Assembly: GCA_016789865.1 (NCBI GenBank)
Contig: JAEUPC010000219.1
Location: 1 to 47,591, forward strand
Length of the DNA: 47,591 nt
From: Rubrivivax sp.
Lineage (GTDB): Bacteria > Pseudomonadota > Gammaproteobacteria > Burkholderiales > Burkholderiaceae_C
Direction of reading: 5' to 3'
This document shows positions 36,354 through 41,350 of this stretch, piece after piece. The translations under genes were made by a program, and so were the position numbers. Each line of letters opens with the position of its first letter. The stretch's first letter is position 1. The notes under the pieces were generated by a model. That model made no database searches, had not been told where the DNA came from, and worked only from the letters and a program-made list of their open reading frames with translations.

Positions 36354-37913
36354 TCAGTCCAGCTTCCAGGCGTGCACCGCGCTGACGGCGAGGTCGCCGG
36401 GGATCACGCCCAGGCCGATTCCGGCGCTGAGGCCGAAGCCCTGGAACACGAACTTGTCGTCGAACGAGATGTCCAGTCCCGCGCTCACCACCTTGCTCGG
36501 CGGCCCGCCGGAGACGGCGCCGCCGAAGCCCCAGCCGGTGAAGCTCGCCAGGTCGACCTTCGGGAAGAACTGCAGGCCGATCGGCGTCACGCCGATGGTC
36601 GCGTTGGACACGAGCTGCGGGCCCACCGCCAGGTAGCGGCCGCCGTTGCCGCGGAAGTCGGTCACCCACAGCAGCGACACGTCCACGCCGATCACCGCCG
36701 CGGCCGAGAAGGCCACCTGGTAGCCGAGGTAGAAGTGCGCGTCGTCCGCGGCGTGCGCCGGCCGGATGAACCAGTCCACCGCCGACGACGTGCGGCGCGG
36801 CAGGTTCGGCATCGCCCCCAGCGCCTGCAGCCGCCGGTCGAACTCGGCTCTCGGCAGCGTGCAGAAGGTCTCGGGCGTGAACAGCGCGGCGATGGCGCCG
36901 CGCTGGGATTGCAGCAGCGCTGTCACCCGCTGCAGCTCGGGCACGGCCCGCGTGTGCGCAGCCAGCGCCTGCGCCACCTGCTGCAACAGCGGCGAGGCCT
37001 GCGAGCCCTGCCGCAGCCGGTCGCGCTGCGCCTCGGTGCGTTCCTGCGTCGCCCGGGCCGCGTCGAAGAGGCCGGCGACCGCCTTGCCCGCGCCCACGGC
37101 GGCGACGGTGGCCTTGCAGATGTCGGCCCTGAGGTCGGCGCGCACGCAGCGGTTGGCGACAAAGTCCTCGGCCAGCCCGCCGTTGCACGACGGGACGCGC
37201 TCGACGAGCAGGCATGGGCGCTGGTCGAGCGCGCCGCAGGCGCCCCGTCGCTGGCAGGTGCCGGCGGCGTTGACGAGCCCGGCGTCGCACGAGCCGAAGA
37301 TGCGCCCGACCCCGGCCAGCACCGCGGCGGCACAGGCGTCGCCGGCCTTCACGTGCGCGGCGCTGCGGCCGTAGCCATCGGGGCACTTCCAGCAGGTACC
37401 GCCGTCGACCAGGTCGAAGAAGCTGCCCGGCGGGCAGGCCAGGCTGGCCGCGAACTGCGCCGCGGCGCGCTGCGGCGGTACGGTGCGCGCGCAGGCGCGC
37501 TCGGCAGTGACAGGGTGCGCAGTGCGCCGGTAACCGCCGGGGCAGCTCCAGCAGTCGCCGTTCGGGTCCCAGAACTGGCCCCGCGGGCAGTCGGTGCGCA
37601 GCAACCCGGTGCCCCGGCCATGCCGTGCGGCCCTGGAGAACGCCTCGTGCAGCGGGCGCTCGCAGGCGTCGCCGCTCTTGACGTGGAAGACCGTGCGCGC
37701 CGCCCCGTCGGGGCAGCGCCAGCAGGTGCCGCCGTCGATCGGGTCGAAGAACGCGCCGCCCGGGCACTGGCTCGGCTTGTTCGACACCAGCGTCGCCTTG
37801 GCGATGGTGCAACTGGCCTGTCCCTCGCCGCCGCATTCGGCCCCCAGCGCCGGGGCGGCGAGCAACGCCGCAAGAGCTGCGCCCAGGACGCGCCCGATCC
37901 ACCTGTTGTTCAT
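36354..37913 (-). CDS. Secreted cysteine-repeat protein of unknown function
   Basis: A 519-residue protein with a signal peptide (about 1-25, ending APALGA). Three repeats follow at about residues 50-84, 109-141 and 160-194. Each has four cysteines in the pattern C-x11/13-C-x2-C-x16-C, with shared sequence such as GGTCWRCPDG, GDCWSCPGGY and GGTCWKCPDG. A fourth Cys-rich stretch follows. The C-terminal half is Cys-poor, with coiled-coil-like helices (QDRLRQG-type) and then a beta-rich part (HFYLGYQVAFSAAAVIGVD, YLAVGPQLVSNATIGVTPI). GGAGG lies 8-12 bases before ATG 37913. I know no described function; a surface or periplasmic disulfide- or metal-binding protein is likely. Confidence 0.7.
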   Translation of the reverse strand: MNNRWIGRVLGAALAALLAAPALGAECGGEGQASCTIAKATLVSNKPSQCPGGAFFDPIDGGTCWRCPDGAARTVFHVKSGDACERPLHEAFSRAARHGRGTGLLRTDCPRGQFWDPNGDCWSCPGGYRRTAHPVTAERACARTVPPQRAAAQFAASLACPPGSFFDLVDGGTCWKCPDGYGRSAAHVKAGDACAAAVLAGVGRIFGSCDAGLVNAAGTCQRRGACGALDQRPCLLVERVPSCNGGLAEDFVANRCVRADLRADICKATVAAVGAGKAVAGLFDAARATQERTEAQRDRLRQGSQASPLLQQVAQALAAHTRAVPELQRVTALLQSQRGAIAALFTPETFCTLPRAEFDRRLQALGAMPNLPRRTSSAVDWFIRPAHAADDAHFYLGYQVAFSAAAVIGVDVSLLWVTDFRGNGGRYLAVGPQLVSNATIGVTPIGLQFFPKVDLASFTGWGFGGAVSGGPPSKVVSAGLDISFDDKFVFQGFGLSAGIGLGVIPGDLAVSAVHAWKLD

Positions 37914-38179
37914 GCGATATGCCTCCGCGGGCGCGTAGAGGGCGCCCAAACAGGGAAAGCAGGAATCCGCCTTCGAATCCCCAGCGAAGTGCGGCCTTGG
38001 CTGGACGTGCGCCGTGCGGCCCGAGCGGCCCGAGCGGCCCGGTGCAGAGCGAGCAAGTTGCCGGCGCCAACGTGTCCCGGCGGGCGATCGAGTTCTGTTT
38101 TCGCCACGCTGGAGTGTCGTCCCCATTCCCGTCCCTGCCAACCTGCATCGCGTGGGCGCGCAGCGGACGACAGCGACCG

Positions 38180-38309
38180 CACTCGGTGGCAACACCTGTG
38201 TCGGCGCCACCCTCATGGAGCCCAACAGGCGCGGCCGCGCCTTCAACGTGCGCCTGCACTGCCGTGCGCCGACATCGACGGATTCAGCTTGCATGCGGCC
38301 GTGCGCTGA
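38180..38309 (+). pseudogene. Possible IS91-like transposase scrap
   Basis: Within the 660-bp gap 37914-38571 two short transposase-like pieces adjoin in different frames. One reads GATLMEPNRRGRAFNVRLHC, resembling the conserved FN-V-x-LHC region. The other reads PCADIDGFSLHAAVR, resembling the GFSLHAAVRC motif of IS91-type proteins, and ends at a TGA. In an intact protein they are well apart, so an internal deletion is implied. The rest of the gap has a 9-bp tandem repeat (GGCCCGAGC, 38018-38041) and no gene I can see. Confidence 0.4.
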
Positions 38310-38571: not shown

Positions 38572-39348
38572 ATGCCCGAGAACACCACGCCGCCTGCCGC
38601 GGCCACCGCCACCGCCAACGCCAACGCCGCGCTGGACCCGGTCGTCGAGCGGGTCTTGGCGGAATTTGTCGAAGCCGCTCGTGCCGCCTTCGGCGAGGCG
38701 CTGACCTCGGTGCTGCTGTTCGGCTCGGCCGCCGAAGGCCGGCTGCGCGCCACTTCGGACGTCAACCTGCTGCTGGTGCTGCAGAGCTTCGAGCCGGCCA
38801 GCGCCGATCGCCTGCGCGAGCCGCTGCGCCAGGCGATGGCGGCGATCGACCTGCACCCGATGTTCCTGCTCGAGTCGGAGCTCGCCCAGGCGATGCAGGC
38901 CTTCGCGCTGCGCTTTGCCGACATCGCCGCACGGCATCGTGTGCTGCACGGCACCGACCCGTTTGCCGCGCTGTCGCTGCCGCGCGACGCGCTGGTGCGG
39001 CGCTTGCAGCAGGTGCTGCTGAACCTGCAGATCCGGCTGCGTGAGCGCTACCTCGCGCTTTCGCTGCGCGAGGAGCAGCTCGCCCGCCACCTGGCCGATC
39101 TCGCCGGCCCGCTGCGCAGTGCGGCCGCGGCGCTGCGGCAACTGCAAGGCCTGTCTGCGGCCACGCCCAAGCATGCACTGGAGGCGGTGGCAGCCTCGCT
39201 GGCCGACCCGACGATGGCCGACACGTTGGCAGCCATGTCACGCGCCCGCGAAGGCGGTCTGCTCGTGCCGGGCAGCGCGGCGGCCGCGGCGCTGCGGCTC
39301 GCCCGGTTGATCGCTGCCATGCGCGAGCAGGCCGGAGCGCTGCGGTGA
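38572..39348 (+). CDS. Nucleotidyltransferase-like protein, first gene of the MNIO operon
   Basis: A 258-residue protein. The N-terminal part has a MNT/Pol-beta-type motif, SVLLFGSAAEGRLRATSDVN then LLLVLQSF. The GS and first acidic residue are present, but the DxD pair reads D-V-N, so the second metal ligand is absent. The rest is helical, with Arg/Leu-rich helices (RLQQVLLNLQIRLRERYLAL). AAGGAG precedes the ATG. Its stop overlaps the GTG start of the next gene (GTGA). It may act as a binding or regulatory protein for the operon rather than an active transferase. Confidence 0.72.
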   Translation: MPENTTPPAAATATANANAALDPVVERVLAEFVEAARAAFGEALTSVLLFGSAAEGRLRATSDVNLLLVLQSFEPASADRLREPLRQAMAAIDLHPMFLLESELAQAMQAFALRFADIAARHRVLHGTDPFAALSLPRDALVRRLQQVLLNLQIRLRERYLALSLREEQLARHLADLAGPLRSAAAALRQLQGLSAATPKHALEAVAASLADPTMADTLAAMSRAREGGLLVPGSAAAAALRLARLIAAMREQAGALR

Positions 39349-40214
39349 ACCTGAATCCGTTTCACCTCGGTGGCCCGGCGTTCCTCGTGTTCTATGCCTT
39401 GCTGCTGGCAGGGGCGGTGGTGGCGCTGCGCCGCGCGATGCGAGTCAGCGAAACCGCCGGTGTGCCGCCGCCACCCCGCTTCGACGACCCCTATCTGATC
39501 GCCTGGCTGCGCGGCGGCGACGCCGAAGCGGTGCGCGTGGCCACGGTGGCGCTGGTGGACCGCGGGCTGCTCAGGCTGGAAGGCGAGCGCCTGGTGCTGA
39601 AGGACCCGCTGGCGCTGGACATCGTGCGGCGCGACATCGAGCGCGCGGTGCTGGGCTGCTTCCGCCGGCCCGAAGAGGCCGAAGCGGCGGACAAGGATGC
39701 GGCCGTGCGCCGAGCCTGCAAGCACTACCGGCGCGTCCTCGAGCAGCATGGCCTGGTGGCGGGGCGGGCGGTCCTGGCTCGAAGGCTGCCGTTGGTGGGC
39801 CTGGTGGCCGCGGTGCTGCTGGGCTTTTCGCTGGCGCGCGCGGCGCAGGCGCTGGCGGCCGGGCGATCCAACCTCTCGCTGCTTGCCGTGCTGAGCATCG
39901 TCGCGGTCGTGGTGCTGCTGGCGCACTGGTTGCGCCGGCGCACCTTTGCCGGCGACGCCGTGCTGCGCGACCTGAAGACCTTGTTCAAGCGGCTGAAGGA
40001 CCGCGCCTCCAGCTTGCGCGCCGGCGCCGGCGGCAACGAGGTGGCGATGCTGGCGGCCGTGTTCGGCTTGTCGGCGCTGTCCGCCATCTCGTTCCCGTGG
40101 GTGCGCAAGCTCTATCCGCCTTCGTCGAAACAGTCGTCGAGCAGCTCGAGCTGCGGCTCCTCGTGCGGCTCGAGTTGCAGCGGCGGCTGCGGCGGGGGCT
40201 GCGGTGGCGAGTGA
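39345..40214 (+). CDS. Membrane protein (TIGR04222-like) with a periodic cysteine tail; candidate MNIO substrate
   Basis: A 289-residue protein with a membrane segment at about 8-28 and further hydrophobic segments near 147-167, 178-198 and 232-255. The middle, RFDDPYLIAWLRGGDAEAVR, VATVALVDRGLLRLEGERL and ACKHYRRVLEQHGL, resembles the TIGR04222 family. After PPSSK and a Ser run, the tail has Cys at about 270, 274, 278, 282 and 286, exactly four residues apart, in Gly/Ser only. It starts with GTG overlapping the previous stop and overlaps the DUF692 start by 11 bases. The tail is a plausible site of oxidative modification by the enzyme encoded next; no modification is shown by sequence. Confidence 0.8.
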   Translation: MNLNPFHLGGPAFLVFYALLLAGAVVALRRAMRVSETAGVPPPPRFDDPYLIAWLRGGDAEAVRVATVALVDRGLLRLEGERLVLKDPLALDIVRRDIERAVLGCFRRPEEAEAADKDAAVRRACKHYRRVLEQHGLVAGRAVLARRLPLVGLVAAVLLGFSLARAAQALAAGRSNLSLLAVLSIVAVVVLLAHWLRRRTFAGDAVLRDLKTLFKRLKDRASSLRAGAGGNEVAMLAAVFGLSALSAISFPWVRKLYPPSSKQSSSSSSCGSSCGSSCSGGCGGGCGGE

Positions 40215-41115
40215 CCTCCCAGTGTTGCCCGCGGCCGCGCCGGCAGACCGCGTGGGCCTGGCCTGGCGCGGCGAGCTGGCCGCGGGCATCTTCGCCCACC
40301 TGGAACGCATCGACATCGTCGAGCTGATCGCCGACGACCACTTCAAGGCCGAGCGCAAGCAGCTGCGAGCGCTAGACCTGCTGGCCTCGCAGGTGCCGCT
40401 GTCACTGCATGGCGTGGCGATGGGCCTGGCCGGCAGCGAGCCCACGCCGGCCTGGCGGCTGGACGCCATGGCTCGGCTGGTGGATGTGCTGCGGCCGCTG
40501 TACTGGTCGGAGCACCTGGCCTTCGTGCGCGCCGGCGGGCACGAAATCGGCCACCTCGCGGCGCCGCCGCGTACGCCGCGAAACGTGCAGGCGGCGCTAC
40601 GCCACATCGAAAGCGCGGCGTGTGTCGTGGGCAGCCTGCCGCTGCTGGAGAACATCGCCAGCCTGGTGCAGCCGCCGGGCTCACCACTCAGCGAGCCCGA
40701 GTGGACACGCGCCATCGTGCAAGGCAGCGGCGCGCCGATGCTGCTGGACCTGCACAACCTCTACGCCAACGCGCTCAATGCCGGGCAGGACCCGCTGGCG
40801 CTGCTGCACGCCATGCCGCTGGCGCAGGTGCGTGCGGTGCATCTGTCGGGTGGGCACTGGATCGCCGAGCCGGTGCTGCGCCCCGAGCAGGTGCCGCGCC
40901 AGCGCCTGCTGGACGACCACGTGCACGACGTGCCCGAGCCGGTCTTTGCACTGCTGGAGCAGCTCGCGGCGAATCCAGCGGTCGGGGCGCTGGACGTGAT
41001 CATCGAGCGCGACGGCGGCTACCCGCCCTTCGAGGCGCTGTTGGCGCAGATGGAGCGCGCCCGTGCCGCGCTCGCGCGTGGGCGGGCCGCCGCGATGCTG
41101 CAGGAGGCTGCATGA
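40204..41115 (+). CDS. DUF692/MNIO-family enzyme
   Basis: A 303-residue TIM-barrel protein of the family that includes MbnB, TglH and BufB. These use a multinuclear iron centre to modify peptide cysteines or other residues oxidatively. Candidate ligands in order: His69 (SLHG), Glu103-His104 (WSEHLAF), Glu149-Asn150 (PLLENI), Asp182, His184 and Asn185 (LLDLHNLYANA), His213 (VHLSGGHW), Asp238-His239 and His241 (DDHVHDVPEPVF), and Glu268 (VIIERDG). All blocks are intact. GTG start overlaps the membrane-protein gene, so the two are made together. Expected substrate is the cysteine tail of that protein. Confidence 0.88.
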   Translation: MASDLPVLPAAAPADRVGLAWRGELAAGIFAHLERIDIVELIADDHFKAERKQLRALDLLASQVPLSLHGVAMGLAGSEPTPAWRLDAMARLVDVLRPLYWSEHLAFVRAGGHEIGHLAAPPRTPRNVQAALRHIESAACVVGSLPLLENIASLVQPPGSPLSEPEWTRAIVQGSGAPMLLDLHNLYANALNAGQDPLALLHAMPLAQVRAVHLSGGHWIAEPVLRPEQVPRQRLLDDHVHDVPEPVFALLEQLAANPAVGALDVIIERDGGYPPFEALLAQMERARAALARGRAAAMLQEAA

Positions 41116-41138
41116 AGCGCAGCGCGATGACGCCATGA
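41112..41138 (+). other. Eight-codon open frame linking two genes
   Basis: ATG at 41112 overlaps the MNIO stop, and the frame MKRSAMTP ends in a TGA that overlaps the ATG of the next gene (41135). Such a chain of stop/start overlaps may pass ribosomes from one gene to the next. Whether it is translated cannot be seen. Confidence 0.4.
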
Positions 41139-41350
41139 ACCAGGCACCGCCGCTCGAGCGCTTCCTCGCGCAGCTGTACGCCGACCCGGCGGCGCTGGAG
41201 AGCTACCTCGCCGCGCCTGATGCATTCGTCGCCCAGGCCGGCCTCGATGCCGAAGAAGCCACCGCGTTGCGCGATGCGGACCTCGTGGGCTTGGTGATGG
41301 CCGCGCGCAGCTGCGCACGCAAGCGCGGCGGCCGCCACGAGCCAAGGTAA
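41135..41350 (+). CDS. Small helical protein, last gene of the MNIO operon
   Basis: A 71-residue protein beginning LERFLAQLYADPAALESYLA then PDAFVAQAGLDAEEATALRD and LVGLVMAARS, a helical pattern like LigA-type or Os1348-type small proteins. It ends basic (CARKRGGRHEPR) with one Cys. It is too short for the usual MNIO partner proteins. It may bind the substrate or the enzyme; it could also be a short precursor. Low purine content before the ATG suggests expression by coupling to the upstream frame. Confidence 0.65.
   Translation: MNQAPPLERFLAQLYADPAALESYLAAPDAFVAQAGLDAEEATALRDADLVGLVMAARSCARKRGGRHEPR

Follow-up and report, generated by a model that had tools for sequence, protein, structure and literature searches.

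A four-gene cassette linking an MNIO enzyme to cysteine-tailed TIGR04222 membrane proteins, with putative exchange of carriers and modifying enzymes

What is a row of evenly spaced cysteines doing at the end of a membrane protein whose gene is followed by that of an MNIO (DUF692) enzyme? The question is raised by a 47,591-nucleotide stretch of Rubrivivax sp. DNA (positions 1 to 47,591 of contig JAEUPC010000219.1, assembly GCA_016789865.1; the whole of it is called the window below), on the forward strand of which four consecutive genes encode a nucleotidyltransferase-like protein (NT), a TIGR04222 membrane protein with a C-terminal Ser/Gly/Cys tail (the carrier), the MNIO enzyme, and a small LigA/NHLP-like protein (SM). 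The initial annotation had taken the tail for a substrate of the enzyme fused to a membrane anchor. This idea is not new, as Antoine et al. (2025, PMC12452194) had already paired TIGR04222 with MNIO and proposed the tail as a substrate, and it is supported here by the conserved linkage of the genes and by exchanges of carrier and enzyme found in sequence comparisons. On these grounds, we consider it likely that the four-gene cassette makes a membrane-anchored protein with a chemically modified cysteine tail; by the same comparisons, novelty seems to lie in the two helper proteins, SM and NT, and in the exchange of one modifying enzyme for another.

The cassette and its cysteine tail

The NT gene (38572..39348, 258 aa) shares a GTGA overlap with the carrier gene (39345..40214, 289 aa), and the latter overlaps the MNIO gene (40204..41115, 303 aa) by 11 bp (40204-40214), as described initially. 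A further ATG-TGA overlap, placed by the same description between the MNIO gene and that of the 71-aa SM (41135..41350), had to be given up: the MNIO stop codon lies at 41113-41115 and the SM ATG at 41135, leaving a 19-bp gap bridged by an 8-codon open reading frame (ORF; 41112..41138) with ATGA at each end, a possible translational relay. An alternative in-frame GTG at 41063 would give an SM of 95 aa. The carrier, with hydrophobicity peaks at residues 22, 161, 186, and 242, scores 90.3 bits against TIGR04222 (E 1.4e-25, NCBIfam cut-off 43) and ends in the tail SSSSSSCGSSCGSSCSGGCGGGCGGE (40137..40211), the proposed modified core, in which five cysteines at a spacing of exactly four residues stand in a Gly/Ser background, preceded by a Ser run, just as the initial annotation had it. 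From the four hydrophobic segments of the carrier and the charge pattern, the tail is predicted to lie outside the membrane; the passages of PMC12452194 on Cys-rich TIGR04222 tails argue likewise and predict them to be periplasmic.

The window MNIO belongs to PF05114 (197.8 bits, cut-off 25, E 2.6e-58) and is the single match to this family in its genome, which is 77% complete. Its top NCBIfam match, NF050167 (BufB), reaches 165.2 bits against an equivalog cut-off of 310, which leaves the enzyme outside BufB. Eight residues (H69, H104, E149, D182, H213, D237, H239, and E268), among them presumably the iron ligands that had been noted as intact, show no variation across the 53 aligned sequences, the window included, and match the corresponding residues of 3BWW in the alignment.

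When the window MNIO was used to search the genome collection, by patterns that require exact short peptides and sample near relatives only, 54 loci were obtained. Iterated profiles detected NT in 43 of them, TIGR04222 in 52, and SM in 52; after dropping the loci cut by a contig end, the rates were 43/49, 52/53, and 52/53, respectively. Comparison of these loci brings out a cassette, with all four genes together at 41 of the 54 loci, tightly spaced in every case except L016, and spread over eight named phyla (52 loci of the tree). At L016, the nearest relative of the window, a Ser/Thr kinase-ATPase-TPR gene separates the TIGR04222 gene from that of the MNIO (L016:2480-5974). The complete set of four genes is present, for instance, in the sequenced strain Janthinobacterium fluminis hw3 (L021). 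Among ORFs of at least 90 aa outside the core, in stretches of unequal length, no further family was found in more than four of the 54 loci. A potassium-channel-like gene with TrkA_N/Ion_trans_2 domains lies near the cassette at L029 (2533-4227), its sequence cluster being present at 4 of the 54 loci, and a gene with these domains occurs also in genome G816. A plasmid search gave 339 records, every one with <60% identity.

The same comparison brings out the conservation of the tail. All 52 aligned carriers match TIGR04222, and every one, that of the window included, has 3-8 cysteines within its last 45 residues. The initial annotation had proposed looking for the tail beside DUF692 genes in other genomes and for a conserved periodicity: the linkage proved to be conserved, and 171 of the 232 pairs of neighbouring tail cysteines (74%) are 3-5 residues apart, the mean of 200 shuffles being 34% and the highest value 42%. 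Gly follows directly after 256 of the 284 cysteines of the 52 carriers, and the pattern C-G(2-4)-C-G-x(0-6) forms the C-terminal end of 48 of them. At the two carrier loci with a G+C fraction <0.50 (0.35 and 0.38; no others are so low), the tail cysteines are mostly encoded by TGT, so that base composition bias alone is insufficient to explain the tail.

Exchange of carriers and modifying enzymes

Tails of the same kind were also found on other carriers beside MNIO genes. Genome G548 encodes an NT (with S-D-I-N), a 217-aa carrier with a different N-terminus and the same kind of tail, an MNIO, and a 176-aa SM-domain protein, and genome G870 has this tail on a 182-aa carrier, together with an NT, an MNIO, and likewise a 176-aa SM-domain protein. 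Neither carrier has a Pfam match above cut-off; both match the carrier profile weakly and partially (2.7e-4 and 1.5e-3, respectively) and may be remotely akin to the TIGR04222 carriers. In addition, Ramlibacter aurantiacus (L043:728-6873) shows a cluster like those of ribosomally synthesized and post-translationally modified peptides (RiPPs), with HlyD, a precursor with a double-glycine leader, an extended SM, a C39 exporter, and an MNIO. This precursor ends in CGG repeats and has a Bacteriocin_IIc match below cut-off, and neither NT nor TIGR04222 was found in the 12.8-kb locus. As the tail stands on these other carriers beside MNIO, it seems to go with the enzyme, whereas NT seems to go with the membrane carrier.

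The enzyme was found exchanged as well. In G816, NT, a Cys-tailed TIGR04222 protein, and the product of an ion-channel gene are followed by an ATGA-coupled radical SAM/SPASM enzyme that scores 494 bits against SbtM TIGR04082 (cut-off 350); PF05114 was not found in the available sequence of this genome, nor was a separate Cys-rich precursor ORF beside the SbtM gene. G1356, from another phylum, has NT, a Cys-tailed TIGR04222 protein and, directly after it, an enzyme 57% identical to that of G816. In these two NT-TIGR04222 loci (L209:3004-7471 and L244:4094-6758), an SbtM-type enzyme occupies the place of MNIO and SM. Enzymes of this type are absent from all 54 MNIO loci (ORFs of at least 150 aa), and TIGR04082 was matched at E<=1e-60 in only 2 of the 297 genomes sampled from the phylum of G816. 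SM was not found in the stretch of either G816 or G1356, and for this reason it seems linked to MNIO. According to the relevant passages of three sources, SbtM converts Cys to thiooxazole with the loss of four H (PMC11002830, citing Lewis 2021), bufferins carry thiooxazoles (PMC12452194), and 5-thiooxazole is made by captophorin MNIOs (PMC12668002). With thiooxazole as the yield of all three kinds of enzyme, the simplest inference, by analogy, would be that the tail becomes a poly-thiooxazole.

SM could be either a partner of the MNIO or a substrate. Members of SM match LigA (30/51), Frankia_peptide (18/51), and Nif11 (2/51) at E<=0.01, the SM of the window scoring 20.7 bits against LigA PF07746 (gathering cut-off 25.3), and the PDB matches of the SM profile are headed by the LigA domain of the borosin precursor SonA (5.8e-6), followed by nitrile hydratase alpha and gallate dioxygenase. 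These likenesses to RiPP leader families and to a precursor would suit an SM that is itself the peptide substrate, that is, an NHLP/LigA-type RiPP precursor, with the TIGR04222 protein as its receptor, exporter, or immunity protein. We regard this as very unlikely, given that SM has no conserved Cys and only two invariant residues (L11 and K63), that its C-terminal extension is variable and mostly basic, and that it was not found where SbtM replaces MNIO. Moreover, SM and MNIO form a single ORF, with no in-frame stop, at 8 of 52 loci, L016, L027, and L035 among them; at L068 this ORF continues into a further protein, and at L058 SM is shortened. Such single ORFs need at least seven changes on the MNIO tree, 17 of whose 53 inner branches are weak, with bootstraps not settled. 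In G548 and G870, the protein continues past its SM domain into another domain, similar to a protein whose gene comes after a Streptomyces MNIO gene (two-sequence profile, hhalign probability 82). SM is read here as a partner of the MNIO. For comparison, the LigA-type domain of SonA is described as the leader and main binding part, and structures homologous to it serve as caps over the active sites of dioxygenases, in cis or in trans (PMC8429565, in the passages on this domain). A relationship of SM to the 61-aa protein encoded after a Tsukamurella MNIO was also tried, and no match was obtained.

The nucleotidyltransferase-like protein

For the NT of the window, NCBIfam/Pfam profiles gave weak nucleotidyltransferase matches; 38 of 42 NT members match Polbeta at E<=0.01, and the NT profile matches ANT(3'')(9) in the PDB at 3.7e-7 over the N-terminal part (the first 60 or so residues). 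Its motif G-S..S-D-V-N (G51-N65; 38722..38766) ends in an Asn that all 44 sequences share (those of 43 loci plus that of the window), at a position that we take to be that of the second catalytic Asp of the nucleotidyltransferase motif. The main clade of NT thus lacks one of the two catalytic Asp of active NTP_transf_2/Polbeta enzymes, and the NT of the window is probably a pseudo-enzyme. An active nucleotidyltransferase of unusual catalytic mode, adding a nucleotide to carrier, tail, or SM, would fit the match to ANT enzymes, the residues invariant in the 42-row alignment (E103, D117, R121, N151, R155, R157, and R182), and the S-D-x-D kept at L234 and L235, two Myxococcota cassettes with MNIO in which NT may be active; with the second Asp replaced by Asn in all 44 sequences, and with several relatives from TPM/LemA neighbourhoods showing no recognisable G-S..S-D motif (as judged by pattern and eye), such an activity appears improbable for the family.

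The distribution of NT extends beyond the cassette. Of 297 genomes from the phylum of L025 (titled Acidobacteria), 70 contained a total of 72 NT relatives: 66 adjoin a TPM protein (with LemA present as well in 63 cases), 5 adjoin TIGR04222 (4 with MNIO and 1 with SbtM), and 1 adjoins another carrier, together with MNIO and SM; L150 and L151 in this listing duplicate L125 and L123, respectively. A Pfam check of the neighbours confirmed TPM in 3/3 proteins and LemA in 2/2. Thus, a TPM protein with a Gly-rich tail accompanies a pseudo-nucleotidyltransferase at L124, L126-L148, and L152-L193 in Acidobacteriota, LemA being present in 63 of these 66 places; a literature search gave no report linking LemA, the TPM domain, and a nucleotidyltransferase. 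For the phylum to which L027 belongs (Polyangiaceae, Myxococcota), 12 of 164 genomes contained 13 NT places: five with TIGR04222 and MNIO, one with TIGR04222 and an SbtM-like enzyme, one of the TPM-LemA kind, two with tail-less TIGR04222-like proteins and no MNIO in the stretch, and four others. L119, L120, L231, and L232 apparently duplicate loci of the first scan. The idea that NT recognises Gly-rich tails loses weight with L238 and L239, where the adjoining TIGR04222-like proteins carry no tail. Another Myxococcota locus (L241:245-1483, minus strand) encodes a 412-aa protein with an apparent signal peptide and a Cys/Gly tail adjoining a degenerate NT, with no MNIO in the short stretch. In Pseudomonadota, NT is rare: at E<=1e-12 it was detected in 1 of 398 sampled genomes, namely that of the window, and strong matches within the class of the window amounted to two among 369 genomes (the window and G548). 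Beside the cassette, a 646-aa ORF on the minus strand of the window (36357-38294) contains repeated Cys-rich units (CP-G-FFD-DGGTCW-CPDG), with Ephrin_rec_like, below cut-off, as its sole match.

A proposed modified tail, its alternatives, and related systems

From the exchanges and fusions brought out by comparison, we infer how the cassette may work. The TIGR04222 protein would act as carrier, with its Cys-Gly tail as the core. SM, a stand-alone and sometimes fused leader-like domain replacing the usual DUF2063 partner, would hold and cap the MNIO, which would oxidise cysteines of the tail ahead of its passage across the membrane. The most likely products would be 5-thiooxazoles, each such Cys losing four H (about -4 Da). 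NT, with no canonical active site in this clade, would serve the carrier and not the enzyme, as an adaptor or chaperone, and the mature tail, predicted to lie outside, would serve to bind a soft metal, for example copper.

Alternatively, the tail of a TIGR04222/DUF2207-like family could act without modification, either binding metal through its thiols in the periplasm or as a surface tail, with something else as the target of the MNIO. DUF2207_C matches 27 of the 52 carriers at E<=0.01, and PMC12452194, in its passages on TIGR04222, reports that one third of the genomes with this family have no MNIO and that the association is loose. In the bacterial family of the window, long TIGR04222 proteins (about 490-565 aa; L002-L008) have Cys tails and a different N-terminal region; two of the seven genomes, G230 and G015 (single contig, 99-100% complete), have zero PF05114 matches, and the remaining five have an MNIO elsewhere in the genome. 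The neighbourhoods of these long proteins (8-12 kb, ORFs of at least 90 aa) contained no NT, MNIO, TPM, or LemA, and no neighbour family common to more than three of them. We nevertheless hold an unmodified tail to be unlikely, as the same kind of tail stands beside MNIO on other carriers, including a precursor with a double-glycine leader, as SbtM, a peptide maturase, takes the place of MNIO in two genomes, and as no alternative neighbour family is shared by more than four of the 54 loci. Besides, Cys was found within the last 45 residues in none of the 66 Gly-rich TPM tails next to NT relatives in stretches that lack an MNIO.

Together with the MNIO-free genomes and the S-D-x-D motifs mentioned above, several further points weigh against a modified tail made by the cassette as a whole. 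NT is absent from 6 of the 49 assessable loci and SM from one, and NT adjoins tail-less proteins at L238 and L239. The swap of enzyme is known from two genomes only; the SbtM of G816 covers just positions 195-516 of the model, and for G1356 the search, limited to a 14-kb stretch, found no MNIO or SM. The DUF2063 domain was rejected as a relative of SM (hhalign probability 0.2, from a profile of four sequences only). Finally, the MNIO is cytosolic and the tail is predicted outside the membrane, so that the enzyme would have to act first. A modified, membrane-anchored tail is still the reading that we prefer. Its more ambitious form, which in our view could as easily prove wrong as right, describes modular poly-thiooxazole membrane proteins: a Cys-Gly tail on a carrier served by a pseudo-nucleotidyltransferase would be finished by one of two unrelated enzymes, either MNIO with a stand-alone or fused LigA-type cap or the radical SAM enzyme SbtM, so that modification would go with the tail, whichever protein carries it, and the enzyme would have acquired a leader-type domain as a permanent part.

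Among known systems, the closest are the TIGR04222-MNIO clusters of PMC12452194. According to its passages on them, MNIO genes are often preceded by TIGR04222 genes, and subsets of the tails are likely MNIO substrates; the clusters share with our loci a membrane protein with a Ser/Gly/Cys tail, predicted to be periplasmic, beside an MNIO; in contrast, their TIGR04222 proteins are mostly from Actinomycetota, and no enzyme swap figures in the passages compared. The 'very small proteins' encoded after MNIO genes that the same passages call adjamnio-V may or may not be SM. Bufferins and captophorins likewise tie an MNIO to Cys-rich substrates, but these have Sec-signal peptides and a DUF2063 PME1 partner, whereas here a membrane carrier and a LigA-like SM are present; no PF09836 match was found in the 77% complete genome of the window. 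The SbtA/SbtM thio(seleno)oxazole RiPPs share the conversion of Cys to thiooxazole and an enzyme type found at the place of MNIO in two NT-TIGR04222 loci, although by radical SAM chemistry. In the split borosins (SonM-SonA), a small helical LigA-like domain binds the modifying enzyme, as proposed for SM, but the SonA domain carries the core, whereas SM has no Cys core and goes with another enzyme. The TPM-LemA membrane operons of Acidobacteriota resemble the cassette in having the NT family beside a membrane protein with a Gly-rich C-terminal tail (66/72 places) and differ in having no MNIO in the stretch and no Cys in the tail. SM and NT had been called partners of no known type in the initial annotation; the resemblance of SM to LigA/NHLP domains and of NT to ANT-type proteins corrects this description in part; the literature searched yielded no case of either used together with an MNIO, the main text of PMC12452194 containing neither 'nucleotidyl' nor 'LigA'.

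If the tail is modified as proposed, MNIO chemistry would act on a membrane protein and not on a free peptide, two unstudied protein families, the SM cap and the pseudo-nucleotidyltransferase, would be defined, and two unrelated enzyme families would converge on one product. The purpose of the TIGR04222 tails would thereby become directly testable through a single mass shift.

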